Shown: piece after piece, positions 33,576 through 52,153 of the stretch
How the letters are laid out: each line of letters starts with the position of its first letter
Position numbering within the stretch: the stretch's first letter is position 1
Source of the DNA: an uncultured delta proteobacterium
GTDB lineage: Bacteria; Desulfobacterota; Desulfobulbia; Desulfobulbales; Desulfocapsaceae
Length of the DNA: 64,000 nucleotides
NCBI GenBank assembly: GCA_903875445.1
Contig: CAIQWD010000064.1
Location: 1 to 64,000 of the forward strand
Direction: 5' to 3'
Notes under the pieces: generated by a model
The model's input: the letters and a program-made list of their open reading frames with translations, nothing else
The model's database searches: none
Told to the model about the DNA's origin: nothing
Position numbers and translations under genes: made by a program

Positions 33576-34346
33576 TTAGTAAAAGAGGAGTTTAGATATT
33601 TTGTCAGCTGTCTGCCGGAGCGGGATAACGACCGACTTTAAAAATTGGTCGTTGAGTCGGAATGCCGGCCCGGCGATGACCACCGCGACCTTTGGCGGGC
33701 CTTCCGCATTGGCGATCGGCACGGCTATGGCGTGGGTGTCCTGATAGCGCTCTCCACGGTCATAGGCGATCCCCGTCTGGCGAATTTCCTGGAGCAGGCG
33801 GCGATAAACATCTTTTGAGACTATGGTGTTGTCGTTGAAGCGCTCAAACTTTTGCTGCAGGCAAATTTCTAAAAACTCGGGACTGCTGTGTGACAGAATC
33901 ACTTTTGCCCCGGCGGCGACATTTATCGGCAGTTGTTCACCTTGTTGAAAGTTAAAGCGAATATGGCTTGGTCCCTCGACATGCATGGCCAGGACGACAT
34001 TCGTGCCCGCCAGGAGTTCAAGGGCAACGCTTTCGCCGGTCTGTTGGGAGAGTTCCGTCAGGCAGGGTTGGGCGATAGCCAGGAGACGCGAATCAAGCGA
34101 TCGGGTGGTTGCAAAACCGATCTTCTGGGCCGATCGGCCAAGCATATATTTTTTTGTCATCGGGTTCTGTTGCAGGAAATTGGTCGCCACCAGGAGTTTA
34201 ATAAGCCGACTTGTCGTCGATTTATGCAAGCCCAATTTCGCGCTCAGTTCGGTTGTGCCCATCTCGTTGTTATAGGGTGCAAAGGCTAAAAGTATGTTGA
34301 GAGCCTTTTCGGCCGAAGAACTATTCATTGCCAGCGGTTTATTCAT
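33576..34346 (-). CDS. IclR-family transcriptional regulator (paralogue 1)
   Basis: 256 residues. The N-terminal winged helix (about 12-75) reads MGTTELSAKLGLHKSTTSRLIKLL. The IclR effector domain (about 90-250) contains GPSHIRFNFQQGEQLPINVAAGAK and GIAYDRGERY. Divergent from the transhydroxylase operon, which it probably controls. It is a close paralogue of the regulator at 48.7-49.4 kb, and both upstream regions share a 12-mer. Confidence 0.92.
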   Translation of the reverse strand: MNKPLAMNSSSAEKALNILLAFAPYNNEMGTTELSAKLGLHKSTTSRLIKLLVATNFLQQNPMTKKYMLGRSAQKIGFATTRSLDSRLLAIAQPCLTELSQQTGESVALELLAGTNVVLAMHVEGPSHIRFNFQQGEQLPINVAAGAKVILSHSSPEFLEICLQQKFERFNDNTIVSKDVYRRLLQEIRQTGIAYDRGERYQDTHAIAVPIANAEGPPKVAVVIAGPAFRLNDQFLKSVVIPLRQTADKISKLLFY

Positions 34347-34431: not shown

Positions 34432-34578
34432 ATACTGAAACTAAATAGAGTGTCCCTGTCGAGATGTCAAGAATTATCCATTCTTGACCCATTGTTGTCA
34501 CGATAAATATCAGTAACTGACTAAAAACAGTAAATATAAAACGGCGTTTACGGTATTATATATTGTATGTAAAATGTC

Positions 34579-34606
34579 TTGACATGGCTGCATTGCAGTG
34601 TAATAA
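34579..34606 (+). promoter_or_regulatory. Promoter of transhydroxylase operon A
   Basis: TTGACA (34579-34584), a 16-bp spacer carrying the palindrome CTGCATTGCAG, and TAATAA (34601-34606). The same layout with CATTGCA in the spacer is found in front of operon C (54803-54830). Confidence 0.6.
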
Positions 34607-34747
34607 TAGTTCCGTATAGTGGTATTGTATTCCAGTATACGACACATTGTCAAAGTCACGGCAGAGAAAAACCAGCCGGTAGTAATGAAAATGTTATGGC
34701 GAATCAAGCGAGTTTTTGCCCTAGGCTCAACTCCGGGAGGTTTAAAG

Positions 34748-37264
34748 ATGAGTGAAAAGGTTTTTACCAGCTGCACCAATGCCGGGCCCGTCAGCGTCTA
34801 TGTAAAAGATGGCAAGATCACCCGAATACGACCCTTGGTGGCCGACGACCGGGACTTCAAGCCGTGGACGATCGAGGCGGGCGGCAAAAAATATTCGCCA
34901 CCCAAGAAATTTGCAGTGGCGCCCTATGTGCATGCCGATCGTCGGCGGATTTATTCGGAAGAGCGCATCAAGTACCCGATGAAACGGGTCGATTTCAATC
35001 CGAACGGCGAGCGCAACCCGCAGAATCGCGGAAAATCTCCCTATGTGCGCATCTCCTGGGACGAGGCCTTGGATATCGTCGCCGGCGAAATCAAGCGGGT
35101 GAAAGACACTTACGGCGGCTCGGCAATTACCGGGCTCACCTCCTCCCATCATAACTGGGGTATCGTCGGTTACAAGATGGGCCCCTTTGCCCGGTTCATG
35201 AATCTCCTCGAATATACGCCGGTACTTGATAACCCGGACAGTTGGGAAGGCTGGCACTGGGGTGCAACCCACACCTATGGTTTCTATTGGCGGCTGGGCA
35301 TGCCCGAACAGTATGACCTCCTTGAGGATTCCCTGAAAAACGCCGAGATGATCGTCCTCTGGTCGAACGATCCGGACTCCACCCGCGGCACCTATACCGG
35401 ACAGGAATCGGCGCTGTGGCGGCAGTGGCTGAAGGAGAAAGGGGTGAAGATGGTCTTTATCGATCCCTTCCACAACTATACCGCCGGCGTCATGGAGGGC
35501 AAATGGATCGCCCCGCGCATCGGCACCGACACCTGCCTCGCTATGGCCATTGCCCATGTGTGGATCAGCGAAGATATCTATGACAAGGAATATGTAAAGG
35601 ATCGGACCTTGGGGTTTGAGGAGTTCAAGGGCTATGTCCTTGGCACTACCGACGGCAAAGCGAAGACCCCGGAGTGGGCGGAGGAAGAGTCGGGAGTCAA
35701 GGCCCGGGTCATCCGCGCCCTGGCCCGCGAGTGGGCGGCCAAACGCACAGTTCTCTCGGGTGGCGCTCGCGGCGGCGAAGGCGGTGCCTGTCGTCAGGCC
35801 TACGGCACCGAGTGGGCGAGGATGATGGTACTGTTGCAAGCGATGCAGGGCTTAGGTAAACCAGGTCGCTCCATCTGGGGTACGACCATGGGCGCACCGA
35901 GCGATGCCGTCAAGTGGTTCCCGGCCTACGCCGACCTTCAGGGGCGGATTGCAACCGCAAAAATCGCCGGCACTATCCCGGTCAACCCGACCAAGCAGCG
36001 ACTCTATCGGCTGACCCTGCCGGACGCTATCCTCGATCCACCGGTGAGCTGGTACGGCGAGGGTTTCTGCGGCCAGTCGTTGGAACAGCAGTTCAAACAT
36101 TTCACCTACCCGATGGAAGGTCACGCCGAGGTGCGTCTCCTTTTCCGCTATGGCGGCTCCTTTATGGGCACGATGAGCGATACCACCAAGTGGGTGCGGA
36201 TGTACCAAAGCCCGAAGCTGGAATTCGTCTTCAACCAGGACATCTGGTTCAACAGCGAAACCCGCATGGCCGATATCATCCTCCCCGCCTGCACCGGCTT
36301 TGAGCGCGACGATGTCGGCGAGTGGGGGTCGTGCGGCGGCTATACCTGTCATGCGAGCAGCGGCTGCAACTTCCGTATTGTCGTTCGCCAACAGAAATGC
36401 ATCGAGCCCTTGTGGGAGTCAAAGTCCGACTACGAGATTCTTACCCTTTTGTCGGAACGTCTCGGAATGAAGGAACAATTCACCGATGGCCGGAGTGAGA
36501 TCGATTGGATCAAGGCCTTCTTCGATTCCTCGGATCTGCCGGCCCTGATTTCCTGGGAGGAATTCAACCGCAAAGGCTACCACATTATCAATATCCCGGA
36601 CGATTACCAGTCGACGCCGTCTCTTCGGTGGTTTGCCGAAGGCCGGGCCTGCGATACCCCGGACACCAACAACCCGAAGCGCAAGACGGAAAAGGCGAAA
36701 GAACTCGGCACCTACAGCGGCAAGATCGAATTTGTCTCGGAGAGCCTGAAATCACGGTTTCCCGATGACGAGGAACGTCCGGTATCGCCCCGCTATATCC
36801 CGAGCTGGGAGGGGCACCATAGTGAAGCCTTCAAGAAATATCCGTTGCAGCTGCTGTCGCCGCACCCGCGCTTTACCTTCCACTGCCATTATGACAAACA
36901 TACCGACTGGCTCGATGATATTCCGGTACACCGCATCAAAAAAGATGGGTATGCCTGGTGGCCGGCGCGTATTCATCCGGATGATGCAGGGCGGCGCGGC
37001 ATCAAAGATGGCGATATCGTCAGCCTGTACAACGACCGGGCCAAGGTTTTGTGCATCGCTGTTGTGACCGGACGGGTCCGTCCCGGGGTCATTCACAGCT
37101 ATGCCTCGTCGGCAAAATACGATCCGCTCATCCCTGGACGGGCCGACTCTCCGGACAAGGGGGGCTGCGTCAACATGCTTACCCCGTCGCGGATGGTCTC
37201 CAAACACGCACCGGGGATGACCCCGAACTCGTGCCTCATCGAAATCGAAAAATGGGAGGGCTGA
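34748..37264 (+). CDS. Transhydroxylase-type molybdopterin oxidoreductase, large subunit (AthL-like)
   Basis: 838 residues of the DMSO-reductase superfamily, closest in my reading to pyrogallol-phloroglucinol transhydroxylase AthL (about 875). Like AthL it has no N-terminal CxxC iron-sulfur motif. SSHHNWG (His134) and NPDSWEGWHWG (Asp164, Ser165) align with the AthL active-site His144, Asp174 and Ser175 at a constant offset of 10. There is no Tat signal, so it is cytoplasmic. The ATG at 34748 follows GGGAGG. It pairs with the Fe-S subunit 5 nt downstream. It moves or adds ring hydroxyls on polyphenols; the exact substrate (pyrogallol, resorcinol or hydroxyhydroquinone) is not determined. Confidence 0.85.
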   Translation: MSEKVFTSCTNAGPVSVYVKDGKITRIRPLVADDRDFKPWTIEAGGKKYSPPKKFAVAPYVHADRRRIYSEERIKYPMKRVDFNPNGERNPQNRGKSPYVRISWDEALDIVAGEIKRVKDTYGGSAITGLTSSHHNWGIVGYKMGPFARFMNLLEYTPVLDNPDSWEGWHWGATHTYGFYWRLGMPEQYDLLEDSLKNAEMIVLWSNDPDSTRGTYTGQESALWRQWLKEKGVKMVFIDPFHNYTAGVMEGKWIAPRIGTDTCLAMAIAHVWISEDIYDKEYVKDRTLGFEEFKGYVLGTTDGKAKTPEWAEEESGVKARVIRALAREWAAKRTVLSGGARGGEGGACRQAYGTEWARMMVLLQAMQGLGKPGRSIWGTTMGAPSDAVKWFPAYADLQGRIATAKIAGTIPVNPTKQRLYRLTLPDAILDPPVSWYGEGFCGQSLEQQFKHFTYPMEGHAEVRLLFRYGGSFMGTMSDTTKWVRMYQSPKLEFVFNQDIWFNSETRMADIILPACTGFERDDVGEWGSCGGYTCHASSGCNFRIVVRQQKCIEPLWESKSDYEILTLLSERLGMKEQFTDGRSEIDWIKAFFDSSDLPALISWEEFNRKGYHIINIPDDYQSTPSLRWFAEGRACDTPDTNNPKRKTEKAKELGTYSGKIEFVSESLKSRFPDDEERPVSPRYIPSWEGHHSEAFKKYPLQLLSPHPRFTFHCHYDKHTDWLDDIPVHRIKKDGYAWWPARIHPDDAGRRGIKDGDIVSLYNDRAKVLCIAVVTGRVRPGVIHSYASSAKYDPLIPGRADSPDKGGCVNMLTPSRMVSKHAPGMTPNSCLIEIEKWEG

Positions 37265-37269
37265 TTGCC

Positions 37270-38106
37270 ATGACTACCTACTCCATTCTTATAGACGTAA
37301 AAAAGTGCAGCGGTTGCTACAACTGTTTCCTGGCTTGCCGCGATGAATATTTCGGTAATGAGTATCCCGGTTATTCTGCGGCCCAGCCGCTGAACGGCCA
37401 GTTCTGGATGCAGATCCAGGAGCTTGAACGGGGCGAATACCCGAAACCGAAACTTGACTATATCCCCAAGCCCTGCCTGCATTGTCAGGATGCCCCCTGT
37501 ATGGGAGCGGCAACGGGCGGCGCGGTTTACCGGCGAAAAGACGGGATAGTGATGATCGATCCGGAGAAGGCCAAAGGTCAGGAGGGTATCGCCCACGCCT
37601 GTCCCTACAGAAGGATCTACTGGAATAGCGACCTGCAGCTGCCGCAAAAATGCACCCTCTGCGCACACCGTCTGGACGAAGGAGAGAAGCTGCCGCGCTG
37701 CGTCGAATCCTGTCCCACCGGTGCCCTGGTTTTTGGCGATTTGGACGATCCAAGCAGTGAAATCGCAATCCTCGCCGCAAAACTTAGGGTCGAAGATCTG
37801 CACCCGGAATTTGCCACGGGGCCGCTTGTTAAATACGTCGGCATCCCCAAGCGTTTTGTCGCCGGAGAGGTGGTTCTGCAGGATAAGGCCGGAGAGTGTG
37901 CAGAAGGCGTGCAGGTCAGGCTGAGCGGCGGCGGGCTGGACCTTGCGACGACTACCGATCTGTTTGGCGATTTCGAGTTTGAGGGCCTGGCGAAAAACGA
38001 GAGCTACAAGTTGACCTTGACCGCCGCCGGCTATACGGAAGCGAACCTTGAGTTTGTTACCTTAAAGGATGTGAATCTCGGTGAGATAGTCCTAGCTCTC
38101 AAATAG
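37270..38106 (+). CDS. Transhydroxylase Fe-S subunit (BthL-like, 4Fe-4S + Cna_B-like domain)
   Basis: 278 residues, near the length of BthL (about 275). Residues 1-180 carry ferredoxin-type cysteine groups: CSGCYNCFLACRDE, CLHCQDAPC, CPYRRIYW and CTLCAHRL...CVESCPTGAL. Residues about 195-278 form a beta-rich carboxypeptidase-regulatory/Cna_B-like domain (TTTDLFGDFEFEGL), the hallmark of transhydroxylase small subunits. GGGAGGG precedes the ATG at 37270. It wires the Mo site, and probably anchors the dimer, in the cytoplasm. Confidence 0.88.
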   Translation: MTTYSILIDVKKCSGCYNCFLACRDEYFGNEYPGYSAAQPLNGQFWMQIQELERGEYPKPKLDYIPKPCLHCQDAPCMGAATGGAVYRRKDGIVMIDPEKAKGQEGIAHACPYRRIYWNSDLQLPQKCTLCAHRLDEGEKLPRCVESCPTGALVFGDLDDPSSEIAILAAKLRVEDLHPEFATGPLVKYVGIPKRFVAGEVVLQDKAGECAEGVQVRLSGGGLDLATTTDLFGDFEFEGLAKNESYKLTLTAAGYTEANLEFVTLKDVNLGEIVLALK

Positions 38107-38154
38107 GGAAACTCTCCTCACTACCTACGTACCAGCAACAGTATGGGAACCAAG

Positions 38155-38484
38155 ATGATTTGTGTAAAAGAAACAAAAGGCGAGCAGTACGAAGCCGCCA
38201 AGCATTTCGGGGTGTACGGTCTGCAGAAAATAACCGAGGCCCAGTCGAAACGCACGACGGTCTGCTACTCCTACTTTCAGCCGGATGGCGGGGCGGAGTT
38301 GGGTTCTTCGCCCAAAGAGCGGATATATTACGTGGTTAAAGGATCCATCACGGTCAGCGGCGGGAGTGAAAGGCATGTACTGGATGAGGGGGATCTCGTG
38401 TACATCGCGCCTCAAGAGGAGCGTGATGTGCTGGTAAACGGCGGCAACCCGGCAGAAGTATTGGTATTGATTGTCACCCCTTAA
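38155..38484 (+). CDS. Small cupin-domain protein
   Basis: 109 residues forming a single cupin barrel (KERIYYVVKGSITVSGG, LDEGDLVYIAPQEERDVLVNGG). The usual metal-binding His set is incomplete: no HxH in motif 1, so metal dependence is doubtful. I preferred ATG 38155, with GGGAA upstream, over ATG 38143. It lies between the transhydroxylase and the CoA ligase and so probably acts on, or senses, a pathway intermediate. Confidence 0.75.
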   Translation: MICVKETKGEQYEAAKHFGVYGLQKITEAQSKRTTVCYSYFQPDGGAELGSSPKERIYYVVKGSITVSGGSERHVLDEGDLVYIAPQEERDVLVNGGNPAEVLVLIVTP

Positions 38485-38511
38485 CTTTGAAAATATATCA
38501 GTGAGGACGCA

Positions 38512-39210
38512 ATGATAACAGCAGAAATTCTGAGCAGGGCGAGACAAGAGAACAGGAAGGTTCTCACCGAGATTGAAGCCAAAGAAATCCTCGGCGAGGC
38601 TGGAATCACCTGCACCTCGACCGTACTTGCCACCTCTAAGGAAAAAGCCGTCTCGGTAAGCGAGGAACTCGGGTATCCGGTGGTTCTCAAAGTAAGCTCT
38701 GTGGATATCACCCATAAGAGTGACTCGGGTGGGGTGAAGGTAAACCTGAAGAGCAGGGTGGAAGTGGAAGCAGCCTACGACGCCATCATGGCTTCCTGCC
38801 GGGCTTACGCGCCAGGTGCCGATATCGAAGGTGTTTCCGTGCAGCCGATGGCCAGACCGGGAACCGAGATCATCATGGGTATGATCCGCGACAAGAGTTT
38901 TGGCCCGGTGGTTATGTTCGGACTTGGTGGAGTTTTTGTTGAGGTGCTGAAAGATGTTGCTTTTCGCATCGTGCCTCTCGAAAAATCCGACGCCGCCGAC
39001 ATGATGGATGAAATCCAAGGTAAGAAACTCCTTGAGGGCTATCGCGGTAAAGAGCCTGCGGATAAAGAGAGACTGCAGAAAATGTTGGTGCAGCTTTCCG
39101 ATTTTGTCAACGCCACTCCAGGGATCGAGGAAATCGATATGAATCCGGTGTTTGCTTACAGCGACGGGGCAATGGTCGTCGATGCCCGGATTATCCTCTC
39201 TGAGGAATAA
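38512..39210 (+). CDS. ADP-forming acyl-CoA synthetase, beta subunit (ATP-grasp)
   Basis: A 232-residue ATP-grasp protein (EAGITCTSTVLATSKEKAV, VVLKVSSVDITHKSDSGGV, GLGGVFVEVLKDVAFRI, IDMNPVF). This is the beta half of acetate/acyl-CoA ligase (ADP-forming). GAGG precedes the ATG. Together with the next gene it would convert a ring-cleavage acid and CoA to the thioester with ATP, or make ATP in the reverse direction. The latter is common in anaerobes. Confidence 0.9.
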   Translation: MITAEILSRARQENRKVLTEIEAKEILGEAGITCTSTVLATSKEKAVSVSEELGYPVVLKVSSVDITHKSDSGGVKVNLKSRVEVEAAYDAIMASCRAYAPGADIEGVSVQPMARPGTEIIMGMIRDKSFGPVVMFGLGGVFVEVLKDVAFRIVPLEKSDAADMMDEIQGKKLLEGYRGKEPADKERLQKMLVQLSDFVNATPGIEEIDMNPVFAYSDGAMVVDARIILSEE

Positions 39211-39273
39211 CAACCGGCAGACAAATCCCTCAATTCCAATTTGCCCAAAGGCGATCAAAAGGACGGTATTATT

Positions 39274-40656
39274 ATGATGGATCTTTTCTTTAAACCAAAA
39301 TCTGTGGCGATTATCGGGGCCAGCGGAACTCCCGGAAAACTGGGCTATGTCATTGTCAACAATATCGCGGGGAGCGATTTCGCCGGAGATGTTTATCCGG
39401 TAAACCCGAAATCGGACGAGATCTTAGGATACAAGGTATACCGATCATTAACGGAAATACCCGGTGCAGTCGACCTGGTTGTCACCGCTCTTCCCACTCC
39501 GAAACTTACTGTGGCGACGATGGAAGAATGTGCCAAAAAAGGCGTCAAAGCAGTCATTATCGAGTCTGCCGGTTTTGCTGAAATGGGTGGAGACGGTAAG
39601 GTTTATCAGCAGCAAATAGTAGATATCGCAAAGAAAAATAATATCCGGGTCATGGGGCCAAACTGCTCCGGTATTGTTTCACGAGGTATTGTCACATCCA
39701 TATACCCTATGACCAAAAAAGTCCCGAAAGGCAATGTTGTGCTCATCGGCCAATCCGGTCTACTCGCTGCCGGCATGGCCTCGGATATCGTCGAAAATGA
39801 AAGTTTGAATATCAGCAAAGTGTGTTCCATCGGTAATAAATGCGATGTTAATGAAAATGACTTATTGGAATATTTCGGCAACGAAAAAGATGTCGATGTC
39901 ATTTCCATGTATCTGGAAACTATTACCGATGGAAGAAACCTGACTCGGATAGCCAAAAAAGTAGCAGCCGAAAAACCGGTTATTTTTCTCAGCGGCGGAC
40001 GCACGGAAGCCGGCGCCAAAGCCGCAATGAGTCATACCGGCAGTATTGCCAGCAATGCCAAGATAGTCGAAGCGGCAGTCAAACAAACCGGGATGATCAT
40101 GGCCGATGATTTCACCGAGTTGAAGGATTTCGCCAAGGTTTTCTCCACCCAACCACTCCCCAAAGGCAATCGCGTCGCCGTGATCACTTTGGCCGGCAGC
40201 GTCGGGGTCAATGTTTCCGATCTATGTGCGACCTATGGTCTGGAACTGCCCAAGCTGACAGCGGCAACAACGGAAAAACTGAAAGACATGTTCGATACAC
40301 CGGTATCGAACCCAATCGACCTCTATTTCAGCGTCACCAAAATCGGTTTCACCAAGACCCTGGAAACCACTTTCCCCGACGCCTTCAGAGATCCGAACAT
40401 CGACGCGGCGGTGTTGATTCTGGCCGGTTTCGAATATACCCAGGAGGCCGTGCAAAAGAAAATCATTCAGAAAATTGTGCAAGAGGTCGGCAAGCCCTTG
40501 GTCGTCTGCATGATCGTCGGCTACAACAAATATAAACACGTCATCATGGACGAAATGGGCAAAGACCTGCCGGTATTCCCCTCCTTGATCTCCGGGGTAA
40601 AGGCCTTGAGCAAACTGTGTGAGTACGGCATCCGCCGGCAGAAATTATCAGCCTAA
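39274..40656 (+). CDS. ADP-forming acyl-CoA synthetase, alpha subunit
   Basis: 460 residues. CoA-binding Rossmann domain at about 5-130 (SVAIIGASGTPGKLG). Two succinyl-CoA-ligase-like domains follow; the phospho-His is in AAMSHTGSIASNA (near residue 250). Start at ATG 39274, AGGA about 10 nt upstream. Split alpha/beta genes in this order match archaeal and anaerobe enzymes. Substrate not readable from sequence; the operon suggests a hydroxy- or oxo-hexanoate-type acid. Confidence 0.9.
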   Translation: MMDLFFKPKSVAIIGASGTPGKLGYVIVNNIAGSDFAGDVYPVNPKSDEILGYKVYRSLTEIPGAVDLVVTALPTPKLTVATMEECAKKGVKAVIIESAGFAEMGGDGKVYQQQIVDIAKKNNIRVMGPNCSGIVSRGIVTSIYPMTKKVPKGNVVLIGQSGLLAAGMASDIVENESLNISKVCSIGNKCDVNENDLLEYFGNEKDVDVISMYLETITDGRNLTRIAKKVAAEKPVIFLSGGRTEAGAKAAMSHTGSIASNAKIVEAAVKQTGMIMADDFTELKDFAKVFSTQPLPKGNRVAVITLAGSVGVNVSDLCATYGLELPKLTAATTEKLKDMFDTPVSNPIDLYFSVTKIGFTKTLETTFPDAFRDPNIDAAVLILAGFEYTQEAVQKKIIQKIVQEVGKPLVVCMIVGYNKYKHVIMDEMGKDLPVFPSLISGVKALSKLCEYGIRRQKLSA

Positions 40657-40692
40657 CCCTCCAAAAAAAGGGGGGATAAAGTGAGGAAAGAT

Positions 40693-41460
40693 ATGAATTA
40701 CGAGAACATCATTCTGGAAAAGGAAGAGAACATCGCCATCATCACCTTCAACCGTCCCGAGGCGATGAACGCCCTGAACAACCAGACCAGGGCCGAATTC
40801 CGCGAGGCCATTGGTGACGTGGCCGCCGACGACAACATCAAAGTCCTTATCCTCACCGGTAGCGGTAAGGCCTTCGTCGCCGGCAGCGATATCAAAGAGT
40901 TCAACAAGACCACGCCCTATGCCGCCCACAACATCATGCGGCTGGGAGAAATGGTGGAAAAGCTGGAAAAACCGGTCATTGCCGCCGTCAACGGCTTCTG
41001 CCTCGGCGGCGGCTGCGAAATCGCCATGGGCTGTGACATCATCATCGCTTCGGACAAGGCCAAATTCGGCCAGACCGAGATCAACATCGGCATTATTCCC
41101 GGAGGCGGCGGCACCCAGCGGCTGCAGCGACTCATCGGCGTCTGCCGGGCCAAGGAGCTGATCTTCACCGGTGATATCATTCGTGCCGAAGAGGCCGACC
41201 GCATTGGTCTTGTCAACCGCGTGGTGCCTATGGACGACCTGATGCCTACCGCCAAGGAGATGGCGAAGAAGATCGCCGGCAAGAGCGCCGCAGCCTTGAA
41301 ACTTGCGAAAACCGCGATCAACCGCGGCATGCAGACCAATCTGGAAAGCGGTTTGAAGTACGAGTACGAACTCTACAGTCTTTCCCTCAGCCTGGAAGAT
41401 AAGGTGGAAGGGGTCAATGCTTTCCTGGAAAAAAGGGCGCCGAAGTTTATCGGCCGTTAG
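40693..41460 (+). CDS. Enoyl-CoA hydratase/crotonase
   Basis: A 255-residue crotonase. The oxyanion hole lies in GSDIKEF and LGGGCEIAMGCD. Both catalytic glutamates of true hydratases are present (the E in GGGCEIAM and in FGQTEINIG), followed by IPGGGGTQRL. GAGGAAAG precedes the ATG. In the pathway it could hydrate or dehydrate an enoyl/3-hydroxyacyl-CoA made from the ring-opened acid; a ring hydrolase of the same fold is the alternative. Confidence 0.92.
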   Translation: MNYENIILEKEENIAIITFNRPEAMNALNNQTRAEFREAIGDVAADDNIKVLILTGSGKAFVAGSDIKEFNKTTPYAAHNIMRLGEMVEKLEKPVIAAVNGFCLGGGCEIAMGCDIIIASDKAKFGQTEINIGIIPGGGGTQRLQRLIGVCRAKELIFTGDIIRAEEADRIGLVNRVVPMDDLMPTAKEMAKKIAGKSAAALKLAKTAINRGMQTNLESGLKYEYELYSLSLSLEDKVEGVNAFLEKRAPKFIGR

Positions 41461-41491
41461 CAGCTAAGGATATCAACGAAGGAATAAGACG

Positions 41492-41926
41492 ATGGAAAAA
41501 ATGGCAAATAAAGTAGCTCGTATCCCGAATTTAGTCGACTGGTCGACCGGTGAAGTCAGATTGATGAGTGCAAAATGCAACTCCTGCGGAACGTATTTTT
41601 TTCCGAAGGAGCATTATCAGCATCGTCCCGGCTGCTCAAGAGAGGGTGTGGAAGACGTGCTGCTTCCGAAAAAAGGCAAGCTGGCGAGTTATACCGTTCA
41701 ATATTATCCCTGTCCTGCACCCTTTAAAACAGAACAGAAGATTACCCCTTACGGTATCGGTCTCGTTGAGTTTCCCGACGAAAAAATCCAGGTTACCGGC
41801 ATTATCACCAATACCGATCTGAAAACGCTTACGCTCGGCATGGAAATGGAAACAACCATTCTTGAGATGTATACCAATGAGGAAAAACAGCAGGTGGTGA
41901 CCTGGGCGTTTCAGGCAGTTAAGTAA
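41492..41926 (+). CDS. DUF35 OB-fold protein (thiolase partner)
   Basis: 144 residues. An N-terminal rubredoxin-like zinc ribbon has CNSC (residues 29-32) and a third Cys in RPGCSREG; the fourth ligand is not obvious. An OB-fold follows (KLASYTVQYYPCPAPFK, GIGLVEFPDEKIQVTGII). DUF35 proteins form complexes with SCP2-type thiolases, acting as acyltransferases or, as in Ltp2-ChsH2, retro-aldolases. The thiolase gene follows directly. Confidence 0.88.
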   Translation: MEKMANKVARIPNLVDWSTGEVRLMSAKCNSCGTYFFPKEHYQHRPGCSREGVEDVLLPKKGKLASYTVQYYPCPAPFKTEQKITPYGIGLVEFPDEKIQVTGIITNTDLKTLTLGMEMETTILEMYTNEEKQQVVTWAFQAVK

Positions 41927-41960
41927 TTTAATATACGATAACTAATAAGGGATAATGACA

Positions 41961-43142
41961 ATGAGAGATGTATATATTATCGGAACCGGGATACACCCCT
42001 GGATGGGTTTCTCTGAGAAGGTATTCGCCGATTTCGCGGCGGTGGCAGTTGACGGCGCTTTAAAAGACGCGGGTATTGAATGGAAAAAAATTCAGGCGAT
42101 CATGGCCGGAATTTTTATTTACGGCGGCAACGCCGGTCACCTTTCCGGTCAATATCTGGAATCCATTTTCGGCGAAACCGGCATCCCGGTGGTCAACGTC
42201 TACAATGCCTGCGCAACCGGCTCTGCTGCTATTAGAATGGCCTACAACAGTGTTGCCGCCGGTGAGACCGAGACGGCTCTCGCCTTTGGCGCCGACGTCT
42301 CGCCGAAAGGGTTTCTGACCGCCAAGTCCGACAATGCGGTGCAGGACCGGGACGTCATCAGGTGGAAAATGGGTGGCTTGCCCAACCCGATCTATTGGGC
42401 GCTCGAATGCCGGAAAAGAATGGCGAAGTACGGCACTACCGAACAGGATCTGGCACTGGTCAAGGTCCTGATGAGCGAGTACGGTGCCAAGAATCCGAAT
42501 GCCCGGTTCAAAAAGACCTACAGCATAGAAGAGGTATTGAACTCCGCCTATGTCTGTGATCCACTGAGACTCTATGAGATCTGCCCGGTCAGCACCGGCG
42601 CTGCTGCGGTTATCATTACCGCCGACAAGGATTTGACTGCGAAAGCCGACAAACCGGTGAAGATCAACGCCACCACCATGGGCAGCGCCATCTACGGCGA
42701 TCCGACCATCCGTATTTCCGCGTTGTCCTGCCCGGCCGTTGCCGAGGCCCCCATGCTCAGTGAAAGCTACTCGGCTTCCCAACAGGCCTATAAAAAAGCC
42801 GGTATCGGTCCCGAGGATATCGATGTTTTGGAACTGCCCGACAACTCTTCCTGGCATTATCTGGTGTACTTGGAAACATGCGGGTTCTGTAAAGAGGGCG
42901 AAGCGGATAAGATGCTTCGCGACGGGATGACCAGAATCGGCGGCAAACTGCCGGTCAATCCGAGCGGCGGCTTCTCGTCGCATGGCGAGGCGCTTTCCGC
43001 TCAGGCTCTCTGGCAGGTCATCGAATGCGCCAATCAGCTGAGAGGCAGATGCAGCGAGCGTCAGGTGCAAGGCGCCAAGGTGGCAATGGCGCAGACCTAC
43101 GGCTTGATGGGTAATAGCGGCACCACCATCATGAGCATATAA
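41961..43142 (+). CDS. SCP2-type thiolase
   Basis: 393 residues. Nucleophile Cys84 lies in VYNACATGSAA. The basic His is in NPSGGFSSHGEALSAQ. The last motif reads AQTYGLMGNSG instead of the CxG of classical thiolases, which places it with SCP-x/Ltp-like members. ATG 41961 was chosen over 41955, both near AAGGG. With the DUF35 gene it forms a pair that may do Claisen cleavage or a retro-aldol step on the C6 intermediate. Confidence 0.9.
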   Translation: MRDVYIIGTGIHPWMGFSEKVFADFAAVAVDGALKDAGIEWKKIQAIMAGIFIYGGNAGHLSGQYLESIFGETGIPVVNVYNACATGSAAIRMAYNSVAAGETETALAFGADVSPKGFLTAKSDNAVQDRDVIRWKMGGLPNPIYWALECRKRMAKYGTTEQDLALVKVLMSEYGAKNPNARFKKTYSIEEVLNSAYVCDPLRLYEICPVSTGAAAVIITADKDLTAKADKPVKINATTMGSAIYGDPTIRISALSCPAVAEAPMLSESYSASQQAYKKAGIGPEDIDVLELPDNSSWHYLVYLETCGFCKEGEADKMLRDGMTRIGGKLPVNPSGGFSSHGEALSAQALWQVIECANQLRGRCSERQVQGAKVAMAQTYGLMGNSGTTIMSI

Positions 43143-43173
43143 CTTTTACAGGGCGGGCGACCGGAGAGGCATT

Positions 43174-44694
43174 ATGGCCGATGCATGGCAGGTAGCAAAC
43201 AGTCGGGTCCTCGAGCTGACCGAAAAAGGGCAAATACAGGAGGCCCTAGAGGCGGCGGCACAGGCAGCGGCAACGGCCCAGCGCGACTACGGCAAGGACG
43301 ATACCCGCCTGGCGGTTTCCCTCAATAACCTCGGTGAGTTGTTGCATATGGCCGGGAGGTTCGATGAAGGCCGGGAAGCCCTTGACCGGTCTCTGTCGAT
43401 TTCCGAAGCTGCATTCGGCAGCTCTTCGCCGGAAGTTGCCGAGACCTTGATAAATCTCGCCGAACTTTATCTTTCGCGGCGGGAGCTTGAACGTGCCAGG
43501 CACTGCATGCAGCGGGTTGTCGATATCCACGGGCAGCTGGAGATGGACCCGCAACAGCGAGTCCTGGCGCTTCACCATTTGGCGATGATCCTCCAGGGTC
43601 TCGGCGAGTCCGAGAAGGCCTTGACGCATCTGCAAAACGGTCTTGACCTTGCCGAGGAGAAGCTTGGAGCAAATGATCCGCATCTCGCCCCCTTTTTGAA
43701 GGGTCTGGCGGCCCTCGATCTCCAGGCCGGGAGGGTCGATGCGGCGGAAGAAAAACTGCGCCGGGCCATTGTCATTCTAGAAAAGAGCACAGGCCCGGAG
43801 CACCCTGATTTTGCCGCATGCCTCAGCCTCATGGCGGAAGTGTATGTAACCCGCGGCCATATTGCCGCCGCCGAGCCCTTTTTTAATCAGGCTCTGGAGA
43901 TTTTTAAAGCCACTCTCGGTCCCGAACATGTCGAAACGGCGGCGATCCTCGAACGACTTGCCGGCCTGGGCGCGGCAACCGGCAAAAAAGGCAAGGCCGA
44001 AGCCCTGTTGCAGGAGGCCCTGGCCGCCTACATTGCCGCCCTCGGCGAGGACGATGTCGATACCGCCAGGGTGCAGAATGATCTCGGCGAGATCTATCTC
44101 GACAGCTCGCGGCATGAGCCGGCGTTGCCGCTCTTTCTTGCATCGCTTGCCGTGCGGGAAAAGATTTTCGGCAAGAACCATCCGGCGGTAGCCCAATCGC
44201 TGAACAACCTCGGCGTGGTCTACGCCCTTCGCGGCGACAAAACCTTAGCCTTGAAGGAGCACGGCAAGGCTCTGGCCATCCGCGAACAGGCCTTTGGCGT
44301 CGCCCACCCGGCAATTACCCAATCCCTCGACAATATCGCCGCCCTTCACCAAGAGCGGGGCGAGCTGGCGAAAGCCGAGGAGATCCTGCAGAGGTCGCTT
44401 GCCGTATGGGAGGGCGAGTATCCGGGCGGGCATCCTGCGGTAGCCCAGGCCCAGCACAACCTGGCCGGCCTCTATATGGTTGCCGAAAGAAATAATGAGG
44501 CGGAAGAACGCCTGCTTGCCGCAAGAAAAATTCTCGAACGCGGCGGCGAGAGGAAGAGCCCGCATCTGGCAACCGTTTTTAAAACCTTTGCCAAACTCTA
44601 CCAGAAGATGGGGAGAATCGCCGACAGCAAGGAATACGCGGCGAGAGCCGAAAAAATCCTGAAACCCGTACCGGCAAAATCGAATAAGGCATAA
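43174..44694 (+). CDS. Tetratricopeptide-repeat protein (kinesin-light-chain-like)
   Basis: 506 residues, almost wholly TPR_10/TPR_12-type repeats of about 42 residues (about ten), e.g. LNNLGELLHMAGRFDEGREA and LNNLGVVYALRGDKTLALKE. No signal peptide or enzymatic domain. GGAGAGG precedes the ATG, 31 nt after the thiolase. Last gene of operon A. Probably a scaffold; why it travels with the catabolic genes is unknown. Confidence 0.88.
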   Translation: MADAWQVANSRVLELTEKGQIQEALEAAAQAAATAQRDYGKDDTRLAVSLNNLGELLHMAGRFDEGREALDRSLSISEAAFGSSSPEVAETLINLAELYLSRRELERARHCMQRVVDIHGQLEMDPQQRVLALHHLAMILQGLGESEKALTHLQNGLDLAEEKLGANDPHLAPFLKGLAALDLQAGRVDAAEEKLRRAIVILEKSTGPEHPDFAACLSLMAEVYVTRGHIAAAEPFFNQALEIFKATLGPEHVETAAILERLAGLGAATGKKGKAEALLQEALAAYIAALGEDDVDTARVQNDLGEIYLDSSRHEPALPLFLASLAVREKIFGKNHPAVAQSLNNLGVVYALRGDKTLALKEHGKALAIREQAFGVAHPAITQSLDNIAALHQERGELAKAEEILQRSLAVWEGEYPGGHPAVAQAQHNLAGLYMVAERNNEAEERLLAARKILERGGERKSPHLATVFKTFAKLYQKMGRIADSKEYAARAEKILKPVPAKSNKA

Positions 44695-45041: not shown

Positions 45042-45491
45042 TTATGGCAAATGCTCCAAATCTTCTAGGTCCTTATGCCGTGCAGCTGCTTTTTTGTTGA
45101 CCTTGAGGTCTTCGAGAGAAATGAAATTCAACAAAATACCGTCAATTTCAACTACCTCGCGCCGAGAGTAACAATCCAAGAAACTGACGCCAGAAGCACC
45201 AGTGATAACTTCTATGCAAACCGGAGGTACGCCCATGCGTATGACTCTGTCCTTGTCAAGGAACAACTCTTGCGAAACCGTCTCCTTCGGCATTCCAAAA
45301 TCATGAAGTACCATAGCCGCTTTCTGGGCATTAGCCTCACTCACTGCAATCCAAATATCCATATCTCCGGTTGCACGGGGATAGCCATGGTAACCCACCG
45401 CATAACCACCAACGAGCAAATATTCAACGCCGTGAGAGTTCAGAAGTCTCAAGAAATCTTTGAAGTCTGGATGTAGCTCGATCGTGTCCAT
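45042..45491 (-). CDS. Nucleotidyltransferase-fold protein (MNT/AbiEii-like)
   Basis: 149 residues of the nucleotidyltransferase superfamily: GGYAVGYHGYPRATGDMDIWI holds the G-G and D-x-D metal-binding motifs, and a later acidic residue lies in VCIEVIT. Such small NTases act as antitoxins or AMPylating/tRNA-modifying partners in two-gene modules. It overlaps the small upstream gene by 68 nt. It is the last gene seen in this cassette array. Confidence 0.82.
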   Translation of the reverse strand: MDTIELHPDFKDFLRLLNSHGVEYLLVGGYAVGYHGYPRATGDMDIWIAVSEANAQKAAMVLHDFGMPKETVSQELFLDKDRVIRMGVPPVCIEVITGASGVSFLDCYSRREVVEIDGILLNFISLEDLKVNKKAAARHKDLEDLEHLP

Positions 45492-45630
45492 AGACCATCC
45501 TTCGGTTCAATTCAACTGCTTCTAGACGCGCCTTTGCCCCTTTAGATAACCAAAAAATCTTTTCTTCCTCAGTCTCATATAATGATGAAACTAATAGCTT
45601 CCTCTTGTCTAGCCTCGGAAGTGTGTCCAT
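45424..45630 (-). CDS. Small partner protein of the nucleotidyltransferase
   Basis: 68 residues (SLYETEEEKIFWLSKGAKAR, then LQRFLETSEL). Small proteins of this pattern repeatedly precede this nucleotidyltransferase type. GAGGAG stands 8 nt before the ATG at 45630, and the start lies 20 bp inside the cassette boundary. Its 3' end overlaps the NTase gene by 68 nt, so both must be expressed together. Role unknown: toxin or accessory subunit. Confidence 0.7.
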   Translation of the reverse strand: MDTLPRLDKRKLLVSSLYETEEEKIFWLSKGAKARLEAVELNRRMVYGHDRATSRLQRFLETSELSRR

Positions 45631-45649
45631 ACAATTTCTCCTCGATACG

Positions 45650-45738
45650 CCATAACGGTGAAATAACCTGCCGGCCGAGGTGCTGCCCACCTTTTAAGAA
45701 CGCGGCTATTTCAGGTCAGGTTTATTGACTGGTTAGCT
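45650..45738 (-). other. attC recombination site
   Basis: Minus-strand ends are AGCTAAC (inverse core) and GTTATGG (core, degenerate), 89 bp apart. TGAAATA...TATTTCA-type and AATAAACCTG/CAGGTTATT complementary segments lie between. The stop codon of the TIR-like gene falls inside the inverse core. Confidence 0.5.
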
Positions 45739-46554: not shown

Positions 46555-46585
46555 TTTTGTCCTATGGAATTCGATTTAACTTGAA

Positions 46586-46650
46586 AGCTAACGTTCCGGC
46601 TCACCGGGCCCGCGCTGTTTGCGGGTTCCGAGTGAAGCCGGTGGTTAAGT
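46586..46650 (-). other. attC recombination site
   Basis: Minus strand runs ACTTAAC (exact RYYYAAC) to GTTAGCT, 65 bp. A strong imperfect palindrome lies between (CCGGCTTCACTCGGAACCCGC / GCGGGCCCGGTGAGCCGG). The DUF4145 stop codon overlaps the inverse core. This is the best-formed attC in the window. Confidence 0.8.
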
Positions 46651-47280: not shown

Positions 47281-47308
47281 ATTAATTATCGTATTTTGTA
47301 TTTTGTTC

Positions 47309-47374: not shown

Positions 47375-47431
47375 TGAATTTAATAGCGGCACCACATTGC
47401 AAAAAATTGAGCAAAAATAACCCTCGATCCT

Positions 47432-48475: not shown

Positions 48476-48511
48476 ATCGTTCAATATCTTGGCAGTAGAA
48501 AATTTTCTTTT

Positions 48512-48659: not shown

Positions 48660-49433
48660 TTAGTAAAAAAGCCGTTTGGAAATCTCCGCCGCCGTTTTCT
48701 TTAAGGGTGCAACAATTTCACCCAAGAATTTCGGTGTCATTCTGAAGGCCGGTCCTGCCACGACCACGGCAGCCACCGGGATGCCTTCGTGGTTGAAGAT
48801 AGGGGTTGCAATGGCATGGGAATCTTCGTAGCGCTCGCCGTTATCATAGGCAATGCCGGTTTTTTTCACATCCGCCAGGACTTCCTTATATTTTTTCTTT
48901 GAAACAATTGTATTGGTAGTGAAGCGATTGAATTTTTTTTGAATACACAGATCGACAAAGTCAGGTTCGCAATAGGCAAGAATTGCCTTGGCCCCGGCGG
49001 CAACATTTATGGGTACCCGTTCTCCCGGTTGGAAGGAGAAGCGGATATGCGATTGACCTTCTACATGCCCGGACAGGACAACGTTTGTTCCCGTCAGAAC
49101 TTCCATGGCGACGCTCTCGCAGACAAGGTTGCACAGTTCGTTTAAATGCGGCTGGGCGATGCTCACTATGGCGGTGTTGAGCGACTTTATGACAACATTG
49201 CCCATCTCGGCAATGGCCCGGCCCAGCATATATTTCTTCGTCTCGGGATTTTGATAGAGAAAATCGTTGGCGGTAAGCAAGTGCAGCAGGCGACTGACGG
49301 TGGATTTGTGAATGCCGAGTTTTTTGCTGAGTTCCAAAGTCCCCATCTCGGTATTATTCGGGGTAAAAGCCATCAAGAGTTTCAAGGCTTTTTCGGTTGA
49401 AGACAGGTTTTCCGGTTGTTGTTTCAGCGGCAT
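48660..49433 (-). CDS. IclR-family transcriptional regulator (paralogue 2)
   Basis: 257 residues with the same two-domain plan as the regulator at 33.6-34.3 kb and long identical blocks (VEGQSHIRFSFQPGERVPIN, GIAYDNGERYEDSHAIATPI). Divergent from the SDR/cyclase operon. The effector domain should bind a pathway intermediate. Two paralogues at the heads of two operons suggest coordinated control. Confidence 0.92.
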   Translation of the reverse strand: MPLKQQPENLSSTEKALKLLMAFTPNNTEMGTLELSKKLGIHKSTVSRLLHLLTANDFLYQNPETKKYMLGRAIAEMGNVVIKSLNTAIVSIAQPHLNELCNLVCESVAMEVLTGTNVVLSGHVEGQSHIRFSFQPGERVPINVAAGAKAILAYCEPDFVDLCIQKKFNRFTTNTIVSKKKYKEVLADVKKTGIAYDNGERYEDSHAIATPIFNHEGIPVAAVVVAGPAFRMTPKFLGEIVAPLKKTAAEISKRLFY

Positions 49434-49643: not shown

Positions 49644-49719
49644 AAAAACAGATACGTTGCGCTTCATAAAACACGATTCAAATATATGCAACACATGATA
49701 ATTGCCGGGAGAACATAAG

Positions 49720-50490
49720 ATGGCAGATCTATTCAGACTTGATGGGAAAGTGGCGTTGCTTATTGGTGGTGCCGGGGGCATCGGCAGTGCATTGTCGCTG
49801 GGAATGGCACAACAGGGCGCCAATGTTGTGGTCGCAAGCAGAAGCGGAGTAGATGCTCTCGGCAAATTTGCCGAAGAGATCAAGGTAAAAACAGGTGTCG
49901 AGACCATGGCGCATCAGGTCGATGTGACGAGCGAAGAGAGCATGGCGGCCCTGGTCAAGGCGGTAATCGCAAGGTTCGGGGCCATCGACATCCTCGTCAA
50001 CGCCTTCGGTCTCAACATAAAACGGCCGGCCTTGGAATATCCCATGGCTGATTGGGAAAAAATTTTCGACGTCAATGTCAAGGGCACCATGATCGCCTGT
50101 AAACATGTGGCCAATGTCATGAAAGAGAAGAAAGGCGGCAGCATTATCAATCTGTCTTCTGTCCGGGGCATTAGAGGCTACGGCGGCGGCAACTCGGCCT
50201 ATTGCGGGACAAAAGGGGCAGTGGAATTGATCACCAAGGCCTTGGCGATCGAATTGGCCCCGTATAACATTCGCGTTAACGCCCTCGGCCCGGCCCTGAT
50301 CATCACTCAGGGGACCATGCATATTCAACAGAACCCCGAACTAGCGAACAAGTATAAGGCCCTGATTCCCATGGGGAGATTGAGCGTGCCTGAGGATTTG
50401 GTTGGACCTGCGGTTTATCTTGCCTCCGCTGCCGCCGGGTTCCACACCGGGCAAACACTCTTCATCGATGGCGGTGCTACGGCTTCATGA
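49720..50490 (+). CDS. Short-chain dehydrogenase/reductase (candidate ring reductase)
   Basis: 256 residues, classical SDR: GGAGGIGSALSLG cofactor motif, VNAFGLN (variant of NNAG), Ser in NLSSVRGIRG, and YCGTK catalytic Tyr/Lys. VASRSG after strand 2 suggests NADP preference. GGAGA precedes the ATG at 49720. Phloroglucinol reductases described from anaerobes are SDRs and are followed in their pathway by a cyclase-family ring hydrolase. Such hydrolase genes lie directly downstream here, hence the candidate role. Confidence 0.85.
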   Translation: MADLFRLDGKVALLIGGAGGIGSALSLGMAQQGANVVVASRSGVDALGKFAEEIKVKTGVETMAHQVDVTSEESMAALVKAVIARFGAIDILVNAFGLNIKRPALEYPMADWEKIFDVNVKGTMIACKHVANVMKEKKGGSIINLSSVRGIRGYGGGNSAYCGTKGAVELITKALAIELAPYNIRVNALGPALIITQGTMHIQQNPELANKYKALIPMGRLSVPEDLVGPAVYLASAAAGFHTGQTLFIDGGATAS

Positions 50491-50544
50491 GTGTTTAGCG
50501 GTGAGGAAAAACAATCACTAACGTTGGAAAAAAGTGAGGATATT

Positions 50545-51348
50545 ATGACAAGAGTTACTGACCCCTACACAGGATTGCAATTGGTGGAGTTGAGCCATAA
50601 CTGGGGCCATGGGGTACCATCCTATCCCGGGCAGGCCGATGTGAAGATGTTCCGGGCCGTCAAACACGCCCAGAACGGGGTTTTGGCATGGAAAATCAAT
50701 ACGGTCATGCATACCGGTACGCACATGAATGCGCCCATCCATCTGATTCAGCGCGGTGCCGACCTGGCCGCTATTGCCGAGGATCGTTTTTTCGGCAACG
50801 GTGTGGTTTTAAGCATTCCCAAGAAAAGTTATGAAGTCGTTACCGCCAGGGATTTGGAAGCCGCCAAACCCGGTGTAAAACAAGGCGATATCGTCGTGAT
50901 AGTTACCGGATGGCATCACAAGTATTCCGAGTCGCTTGAGTATTTCGGGGAATCCCCAGGTTTGACAAAAGACGCCGCCCAGTGGCTGGCCGACAAGGAG
51001 TGCAAACTGGTAGCCGTCGATACCCAGCAAGTCGATCATCCCTTGGCGACCTCGCTTGGACCGCATCGCGGCGGCCCGACCATGCGTCGGCTCGCCGGTG
51101 AATATATGAAAGCCACCGGGAAAGATCCGAAAAAAGAACATGGCGAATGGAACGTTGCCCATAAAATCCTTTTGGCTGCCGGGATTCCGACTATCGAGCA
51201 GGTGGGCGGTGACGTCGATCTTCTGTTGGGAAAACGAGCTACTTTTGTGGCAACGCCGTGGAAGTTTCAATACGGCGACGCTTGCCCCGTCCGTTTTGTC
51301 GCCATGACCGACCCGAGCGGCAACCTGTGTATCGACGCAGGCAATTAA
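50545..51348 (+). CDS. Cyclase-family (PF04199) metal hydrolase 1
   Basis: 267 residues. The family metal motif HxGTHxDxPxH appears as HTGTHMNAPIH (residues 56-66): the Asp is replaced by Asn62. This fold includes kynurenine formamidase and hydrolases that open cyclic ketones, including dihydrophloroglucinol. GTGAGGA precedes the ATG. Follows the SDR gene, and a second paralogue follows it. It may open the reduced ring. Confidence 0.85.
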   Translation: MTRVTDPYTGLQLVELSHNWGHGVPSYPGQADVKMFRAVKHAQNGVLAWKINTVMHTGTHMNAPIHLIQRGADLAAIAEDRFFGNGVVLSIPKKSYEVVTARDLEAAKPGVKQGDIVVIVTGWHHKYSESLEYFGESPGLTKDAAQWLADKECKLVAVDTQQVDHPLATSLGPHRGGPTMRRLAGEYMKATGKDPKKEHGEWNVAHKILLAAGIPTIEQVGGDVDLLLGKRATFVATPWKFQYGDACPVRFVAMTDPSGNLCIDAGN

Positions 51349-51370
51349 CAACCCGAGAGGAGGAAGAGTT

Positions 51371-52153
51371 ATGAGCCTTGAAATATATAATCTCAGCCAT
51401 CCGTTCCATCAGCATATGCCGGAGTGGCCTTCGACTCCGGGTGTCAATGTAACCGTCAATAAATTTCATGCCAAGGACGGTGTCTATGAGGTCAACTGGG
51501 AAGGCATCATGCACCGCTGCACCCATATGGATGCGCCGATACATGTGACCGAAAACACGCCGGGTATTGCCGAATATCCGCTGTGGCGATTGTGCGGCAC
51601 CGGCGTCGCGGTATCCATTCCTAAAGGCAAATGGGGCATCATAACCGCCGAGGATCTTGAAAGGGCGACTCCGAAAATAGAGGAGGGCGATATCGTCATG
51701 ATCAACACCGGCTTCCATCACAAGTGGGCGGATACCGACGAGTATTTTGCCTACGGTTGCGGCATTTACCGCGATGGTGCCCAGTGGCTGGTTGATAAAA
51801 AAGTGAAACTGGTCGGCTACGGACACCAGGCCAACGACCATCCGATTGCCACCAAGTTGGTTGATCACGGCCTCGGACCGACCCAGCCGCATCTGATTGA
51901 GGAATACAAAGCCTTTACCGGCCGTGATGCTAAAGCCGATTTTCCCGATTGGGAAGCCGGGCATAAGACCCTCATGGTAAAAGGCGGCATTCCCGGTATC
52001 GAGAACATCGGCGGCGATCTCGACAAGGTTACCGGTAAAAGGTGTTTTTTTATGGCGCTCCCCTGGCGTTGGCCGGGTGGCGACGGTTGCGTGGTTCGCG
52101 TTCTGGCAATCGTCGATCCGGAGCAGAAATTCCGCTTTGAAACGGGCAAGTAG
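51371..52153 (+). CDS. Cyclase-family (PF04199) metal hydrolase 2
   Basis: 260 residues. The metal motif is HRCTHMDAPIH (residues 48-58): all His/Asp ligands are kept but the usual Gly is Cys50. Also conserved is the HHKWADTDEYFAYGCG segment. GAGGAGGAAGAG precedes the ATG 22 nt after gene 1. The two paralogues may form a heteromer or act on two substrates. Confidence 0.85.
   Translation: MSLEIYNLSHPFHQHMPEWPSTPGVNVTVNKFHAKDGVYEVNWEGIMHRCTHMDAPIHVTENTPGIAEYPLWRLCGTGVAVSIPKGKWGIITAEDLERATPKIEEGDIVMINTGFHHKWADTDEYFAYGCGIYRDGAQWLVDKKVKLVGYGHQANDHPIATKLVDHGLGPTQPHLIEEYKAFTGRDAKADFPDWEAGHKTLMVKGGIPGIENIGGDLDKVTGKRCFFMALPWRWPGGDGCVVRVLAIVDPEQKFRFETGK

Follow-up and report, generated by a model that had tools for sequence, protein, structure and literature searches.

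In this paper we examine a 64,000-nucleotide stretch (the window) of contig CAIQWD010000064.1 (C64) from an uncultured delta proteobacterium of the Desulfocapsaceae, whose assembly (GCA_903875445.1) measures 4.89 Mb and is 95.3% complete. The window contains operon A, nine co-directional genes on the + strand at 34748-44694, and, further downstream, genes for a short-chain dehydrogenase/reductase (SDR) and two cyclase-family proteins. We propose, with a probability of roughly 0.6, that these genes together encode anaerobic degradation of pyrogallol and phloroglucinol, in which a lower branch of coenzyme A (CoA) thioesters would take the position of the enzymes TfD and TAL. The genes of operon A, in order, are those for the large and small subunits of a transhydroxylase (L1, S1), a small cupin, the two subunits of an ADP-forming acyl-CoA ligase (acdB, acdA), a crotonase (ech), a DUF35 protein (duf35), a thiolase-like enzyme (thl) and a TPR protein.

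Judging from sequence and gene order, from which all the step assignments come, L1/S1 would convert pyrogallol to phloroglucinol, the SDR would reduce phloroglucinol to dihydrophloroglucinol, and a cyclase-family protein would open the ring to give 3-hydroxy-5-oxohexanoate (HOHN), which the ADP-forming ligase would activate to HOHN-CoA. By default, a 3-hydroxyacyl-CoA dehydrogenase encoded elsewhere would oxidize HOHN-CoA to 3,5-dioxohexanoyl-CoA, and thiolysis would follow: the DUF35/thiolase pair would cleave the carbon-carbon bond via an acyl-enzyme on Cys86, yielding acetyl-CoA and a C4-CoA, which generic thiolase, hydratase and 3-hydroxyacyl-CoA dehydrogenase would turn into two more acetyl-CoA. 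Candidates for these generic reactions are the other enoyl-CoA hydratase (ECH) and 3-hydroxyacyl-CoA dehydrogenase (HAD) genes of the window's own genome. Which derivative of HOHN-CoA gets cleaved is the least certain point of this pathway.

Linkage of the CoA genes to polyphenol genes

When genome contigs were scanned with the thiolase alignment, 103 relatives were confirmed, of which the best 80, representing 79 distinct loci, were kept. Gene presence in these loci, which vary in length, was set by chosen identity and coverage cut-offs. Among the 32 loci with a thiolase at least 70% identical to that of the window, duf35 is present in 32, acdB in 28, acdA in 28 and ech in 27; L1 follows with 19, S1 with 18, sdr with 18, the cupin gene with 17, the TPR gene with 12, cyc2 with 9, cyc1 with 8, a single cyclase of the TAL type with 3 and a TAL-like gene with 1, and TfD was found in none (0/32) at the chosen cut-offs. 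The co-occurrence across genome neighbourhoods that an earlier note on this DNA had proposed as a check is found for DUF35 in 32/32, for the ligase genes in 28/32 and for the crotonase in 27/32 loci. At least one upper polyphenol gene, cupin and transhydroxylase included, accompanies the module in 25 of the 32. The four loci lacking acdB and acdA are cut by a contig end, with the thiolase at most 1.9 kb from the locus start, and ech is present in 26 of the 28 loci that hold both ligase genes, the two without it (L096, L098) being from Betaproteobacteria. In the 47 more distant loci (thiolase below 70%), acdB and acdA were not found at all, and sdr, cyc1 and cyc2 occur together only in L110.

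The order L1-S1-cupin-(sdr)-acdB-acdA-ech-duf35-thl is found again in other genomes, and two loci, L077 and L095 (the latter with L1 cut by the contig start), carry L1-S1-cupin-sdr-cyc1-cyc2-acdB-acdA-ech-duf35-thl as a single run. L073, which starts within duf35, continues with the thiolase and TPR genes and then iclR2-sdr-cyc1-cyc2. The gene set occurs in records deposited as Desulfobulbaceae, other sulfate-reducer groups, SAR324, Dehalococcoidia, Betaproteobacteria and Bacillota. Across 37 genomes (that of the window and its relatives), the thiolase orthologue and cyc2 co-occur in the same 10, the window's own included; nine of these 10 are among 15 genomes of the window's genus, and the orthologue is 92-97% identical in the other co-occurrence genomes, the G001 copy being split across two contigs. 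Two genomes are exceptions: G017 has no closer thiolase than a 30% relative, and G028 no more than a piece of cyc2, 98 residues long, lying at the edge of a contig. The thiolase subfamily is rare: among 395 genomes of the phylum, identity above 42% is seen only in the window's own genome and in two 68% relatives, and in the stretches around these two the ligase had no match, though DUF35 is present.

The earlier note had assigned the whole operon to one polyphenol pathway. On gene order, this predicted grouping is well supported, and linkage ties the transhydroxylase, CoA ligase, crotonase and DUF35/thiolase to it; the TPR gene (43174..44694, +; domain match) is the weakest member, present in 12/32 loci versus 28/32 for each ligase gene (some loci are cut downstream). 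As it lies outside the conserved core, we dropped the TPR protein as a pathway member.

A swap of the lower branch can be seen within Dehalococcoidia. L151 (genome G430) reads CtfB-CtfA-TfD-cupin-SDR-TAL-cyclase, which is the Clostridium type; the CtfAB, TfD and TAL labels come from reading the sequences, from a BKACE match and from the described cluster. In L092, also from Dehalococcoidia, a cyclase and an SDR that are 82% and 63% identical to those of L151 adjoin acdB-acdA-ech-duf35-thl, and no match to TfD, TAL or Ctf was obtained at 1e-20 in this 14-kb locus. The activating enzyme varies as well. L110 (Actinomycetota) reads sdr-cyc1-cyc2-family III CoA transferase-duf35-thl, with the CoA transferase occupying the ligase position and the contig stopping inside the thiolase gene. 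L109 and L112 read CoAT3-duf35-thl-3HCDH-ECH, with CoA transferases 72% and 68% identical to that of L110; of the two 3HCDH assignments, that of L109 alone has a Pfam confirmation. In both genomes the two cyclases are encoded on other contigs (cyc2 79% and 73%). This suggests that a beta-oxidation-type set serves the pathway in these two genomes, and in their lineages the set may include a 3-hydroxyacyl-CoA dehydrogenase. Because L110, L109 and L112 use a CoA transferase in place of the ligase, CoA activation seems to be constant while the enzyme that performs it changes. Taken together, the linkage counts and the Dehalococcoidia swap make it most likely that the ring-opened acid is converted to its CoA thioester, which DUF35/thiolase then cleaves, and on these grounds the separate route for this C6 acid that had been suggested from the window alone looks correct.

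Predicted enzymes from pyrogallol to HOHN-CoA

All eight gene families lie in the window at the expected coordinates, in the expected order and on the expected strand. As the earlier note described, an AthL/BthL-like pair is followed without a break by the cupin, split ligase, crotonase, DUF35/thiolase and TPR genes, with intergenic gaps of 5-63 bp by coordinate subtraction.

L1 (34748..37264, +) is the large subunit of an AthL-like molybdenum enzyme. It is homologous over its full length to the large subunit of pyrogallol hydroxytransferase (PDB 4v4c; E 4e-271, residues 6-838) and matches the AhtL-like domain PF21423 with 68.6 bits (cut-off 27). In a pairwise alignment, His144, Asp174, Ser175 and Tyr404 of chain 4v4c_A, which we take to be active-site residues, are unchanged, whereas Arg153 is replaced by Lys and Trp354 by Glu. 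S1 (37270..38106, +) is assigned by domain match as the Fe-S small subunit and has a CarboxypepD_reg tail; L1/S1 is a predicted pyrogallol transhydroxylase. The small cupin (38143..38484, +; Pfam Cupin_2, 4.8e-9) has relatives in the TfD/TAL-type clusters L151 and L152, being 42% and 39% identical to their cupins.

The SDR and the two cyclases of the same pathway, at 49702-52153, had been overlooked in the earlier note. The SDR (49702..50490, +), a candidate phloroglucinol reductase from its domain match and its relatives in clusters, is 47% and 49% identical to the SDRs that accompany TfD and TAL in L151 and L152. In five relatives (L015, L017, L018, L019 and L020), an SDR 58-62% identical to it lies between the cupin gene and acdB, and 21 of the 24 thiolase-bearing genomes (23 with a thiolase at 70% or above, plus that of L110 at 51%) gave an SDR match with an E-value no higher than 1e-70. 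The cyclase-family proteins 1 (50491..51348, +; PF04199, 5.5e-33) and 2 (51371..52153, +; PF04199, 1.2e-29) are candidate dihydrophloroglucinol hydrolases. At the expected metal site, cyclase 1 reads HTGTHMNAP and cyclase 2 reads HRCTHMDAP; we take HxGTHxDxP to be the metal motif of the family. The two genes often stand in tandem, and their products possibly form a heteromer.

The ligase is encoded by acdB (38512..39210, +; Pfam ATP-grasp_5, 5.3e-85) and acdA (39274..40656, +, with an alternative TTG start at 39241; domain match). Both the ATP-grasp subunit and the CoA_binding/Succ_CoA_lig subunit of an ADP-forming acyl-CoA ligase are thus encoded, and acdA contains an SHTG motif, the role of which we presume.

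CoA-level steps occur in Pelobacter. A close comparison for the window is the pathway by which Clostridium scatologenes degrades phloroglucinol anaerobically (PGR, DPGC, TfD, TAL; PMC10470551), which has HOHN as the expected intermediate and in which phloroglucinol reductase and dihydrophloroglucinol cyclohydrolase belong to the same SDR and cyclase families. The window differs from it in having an ADP-forming CoA ligase, a crotonase and DUF35/thiolase instead of TfD and TAL, in the placement of the transhydroxylase within the same operon, and in its two tandem cyclases. Of the components of the Clostridium-type pathway, the SDR and the cyclase-family hydrolase are present, and no match was found to TAL (BKACE family) in the genome or to TfD in the cluster; the 3HCDH genes of the window's own genome, on contigs C101 and C68, are 32-33% identical to TfD. 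The same source has the Clostridium route taking in pyrogallol, TAL forming acetoacetyl-CoA and a CoA transferase activating acetoacetate (PMC10470551); the statement in the earlier note that free acids are the end point of the known transhydroxylase pathways does not fit these CoA-level steps. In the open-access literature searched, none of the matches listed describes operon A, and nearly all of those listed for HOHN-CoA or triacetyl-CoA concern cellulose or uridine triacetate, which makes the latter a weak test.

The thiolase-like enzyme and the cleavage step

The SCP2-type thiolase-like enzyme (41955..43142, +) belongs, by sequence and model, to a subfamily with the signature C..[PQ]DN..GEA. 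The nucleophilic Cys86 is retained in 80/80 rows of the alignment. The HDxF site of thiolases reads [PQ]DN in 77/79 rows (PDNS in the window) and YDL in two distant ones (L148, L150), and the GH[PA] site reads GEA in 79/79; the L104 row is of half length and was counted for Cys86 only, and of the two copies in L102 the 53% copy was used. In the five solved chains of the alignment, which come from four proteins, the first site reads HD and the second GH, and both of these His residues are presumably catalytic. The patterns used in the scan select the G[ILM]HPW and GI[FY]I[YW]GGN stretches, and Cys86, [PQ]DN and GEA lie outside them; the conservation of His14 is uninformative, because its stretch is one that the patterns select.

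An AlphaFold2 model of the enzyme (mean predicted local distance difference test 85.0, predicted template-modelling score 0.89) is nearest to 6esq_A (Z 51.2, root-mean-square deviation 2.3, 371 aligned residues), with 6hrv and 7pxp tied at 50.6. These top-scoring structures, at Z 50-51, are a DUF35-partnered acetoacetyl-CoA thiolase, a benzoylsuccinyl-CoA thiolase and an SCP2 thiolase. With the DUF35-partnered thiolases (7pxp, benzoylsuccinyl-CoA; 6esq, acetoacetyl-CoA) the window enzyme shares the fold, the DUF35 partner gene and the Cys nucleophile, and it differs from them in [PQ]DN and GEA at the two His sites. With the DUF35 aldolases Ltp2-ChsH2 (6ok1) and Sal-Shy (9myr) it shares the fold and the DUF35 partner, but it lacks YDHF/YDCY and keeps the nucleophilic Cys. 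A Cys acyl-enzyme mechanism is thus more likely than that of an aldolase, and the acid-base machinery is different from that of the thiolases compared.

The DUF35 partner (41492..41926, +; PF01796 2.8e-8, 6esq_E 5.9e-10) is a zinc-ribbon/OB protein. Cys29, Cys32 and Cys48 of its zinc ribbon are present, and the second knuckle reads HRPGC; since it has no CxxC there, the ribbon may be of a Cys3His1 type. In L103 (the same region as L061), a Desulfarculaceae metagenome-assembled genome (MAG), a 68% thiolase/DUF35 pair stands with an SDR, B12-mutase subunits and MeaB. This arrangement resembles the acetone cluster of sulfate reducers, the product of which is acetoacetyl-CoA (PMC7888143); its TDP enzyme was not among the seven open reading frames of L103 scanned.

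Several observations weigh against the proposed pathway. Many of the loci are from MAGs with possible binning errors. Among the best 60 of 117 PDB matches to the SDR, none is named phloroglucinol reductase, the best being gluconate 5-dehydrogenase. Ordinary thiolysis is not assured, because both thiolase His sites are changed (HDxF to [PQ]DN, GH[PA] to GEA). The operon itself has no dehydrogenase, and it includes a crotonase though the default route does not need one. Finally, strict replacement of TAL is weakened by BKACE-family genes in 16 of the 24 thiolase-bearing genomes. In L100 one of these genes adjoins the SDR, and in genomes G430 and G436 the module coexists with a TfD/TAL-type cluster (no cyclase or CtfAB was found in the G436 stretch, L152). 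Desulfopila aestuarii DSM 18488 has a divergent BKACE gene (G426:C47:182887-183666 = L154:6887-7666; 191.6 bits) just past the TPR gene and about 1.8 kb from the thiolase, which was not matched by TAL queries at 1e-20; in G011 and G015, BKACE genes of similar score lie on the thiolase contig, roughly 17-38 kb off. BKACE is a broad family, and the presence of such a gene therefore does not equal TAL activity.

The crotonase (40681..41460, +, with an alternative ATG at 40693; domain match) retains Glu113 and Glu133, which we take to be its catalytic residues, in 27/27 homologues at 65% identity or above in the loci. A dedicated crotonase would be unneeded if HOHN-CoA were oxidized directly, and we therefore keep open a vinylogous thiolysis, doubtful as it is. 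Here, the crotonase would dehydrate HOHN-CoA to 5-oxohex-2-enoyl-CoA, Cys86 would attack the ketone at C5 and crotonyl-CoA would leave as its dienolate, giving acetyl-CoA and crotonyl-CoA in a redox-neutral reaction, with a Cys/Asn/Glu site in place of the Cys/His set. On the one hand, the crotonase with both Glu accompanies the module and a TfD-type dehydrogenase does not (0/32 loci), the genome has another enoyl-CoA hydratase (53%) and a HAD-thiolase pair on C101, both His sites are changed with the Cys nucleophile kept, and HOHN is by formula acetic plus crotonic acid. On the other hand, we can cite no precedent, the two betaproteobacterial loci L096 and L098 do without the crotonase, and the residue changes also occur in relatives that lack linkage to phloroglucinol genes, among them L103, whose thiolase, in its acetone-type setting, would be expected to act on acetoacetyl-CoA. 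The crotonase would alternatively be explained by epimerization of the 3-hydroxyl or by entry of 5-oxohex-2-enoate from resorcinol.

It is unlikely that the module acts after TAL, with acdAB activating acetoacetate and DUF35/thiolase splitting acetoacetyl-CoA. The two genomes that hold both the TfD/TAL-type cluster and the module, the BKACE gene that adjoins the SDR of L100, the divergent one close to the D. aestuarii operon, and the 68% thiolase beside acetone-type genes in L103 are consistent with such a role. However, no BKACE-family match was obtained in 8 of the 24 thiolase genomes, namely the window's own (95.3% complete), G009, G010 (its genus-mate Desulforhopalus singaporensis DSM 12130), G012, G427, G428, G434 and G438 (Desulfamplus magnetovallimortis), some of these being MAGs that are less complete or of unknown completeness. 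As they have no such match, acetoacetate made by TAL would not be expected in these eight. In addition, two other HAD-thiolase gene pairs, read from sequence, are already present in the window's genome, and the crotonase would be left without explanation.

A retro-aldolase in operon A had been raised in the earlier note: a DUF35 aldolase like Ltp2 or Sal would cleave HOHN-CoA to acetyl-CoA and acetoacetaldehyde. In its favour, HOHN-CoA would count as a 3-hydroxyacyl-CoA, 32/32 loci have the DUF35 partner and 0/32 a TfD-type dehydrogenase, and both thiolase His residues are absent. In the aldolases as described, the motif is YDHF in Ltp2 and YDCY in Sal, which has Gly in place of the nucleophile (PMC12329534). 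The window's family has neither motif ([PQ]DN in 77/79, YDL in the two distant rows) and has Cys86 in 80/80, the model scores higher against thiolases (Z 50-51) than against Ltp2 (44.7) or Sal (42.8), and no aldehyde dehydrogenase was recognized, without a family scan, among the nine gene clusters common to at least three loci. Because its residues mismatch those of the aldolases, this reaction is improbable, and we do not retain it as a first choice. Finally, a chance or purely regulatory neighbourhood, in which the CoA genes would serve unrelated, for example branched-chain, acids, is suggested by how generic the ligase, crotonase and thiolase families are, but it is very improbable given the recurrence of the gene set across several phyla and its co-occurrence with cyclases.

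Regulators, neighbouring genes and significance

An IclR-family regulator gene (33576..34346, -; Pfam IclR_C, 1.3e-34) is divergent to operon A, and a homologue at 60% identity or above is present in 10/32 loci. A promoter-like site (34579..34607, +; TTGACA-17-AATAAT, 11/12) lies upstream of L1; the scanned stretch has 14 such sites, whereas shuffled sequence gave 8.0 +/- 2.9. Words of 11 bases that cover the -35 region of this site recur upstream of L1 in 3-4 of nine other loci. A palindrome at 34466-34488 was rejected as a conserved operator, as it is absent from the palindromes upstream of L1 in nine other loci. A second IclR regulator gene (48660..49433, -; domain match) stands beside the ring-opening genes.

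Between operon A and the ring-opening genes, the window has at 45042-48484 a nucleotidyltransferase-like gene, a CAP12/Pycsar TIR effector gene (PF10137, 3.3e-35), a DUF4145 gene and a phage integrase gene. This looks like an inserted defence-like island, because the interval between the TPR gene and iclR2 in L073 is only about 0.8 kb. Just downstream of the thiolase in another locus (L081:6300-7757) are fragments related to the window integrase (64%, 42%). Operon B (54891-62370) encodes an Fe-S protein, NrfD, an Fe4S4-type Mo oxidoreductase, a second AthL-like large subunit and a small subunit; its first three genes are near the module in L093 and L113, and the whole set is near an sdr-cupin-S1-L1 run in L156. 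At 238-2013, a HEPN (RiboL-PSP) gene adjoins a GmrSD-type gene, a possible defence pair.

The analysis defines a DUF35-partnered thiolase-like subfamily in which the nucleophilic Cys is kept and both thiolase His residues are gone. Surveys that use TAL or TfD as markers could miss, for instance, the window's bacterium, Desulforhopalus singaporensis and Desulfamplus magnetovallimortis, none of which gave a BKACE-family match. With this gene set, found in records from several phyla, a second lower branch of the anaerobic breakdown of phloroglucinol and pyrogallol gains a genetic basis.

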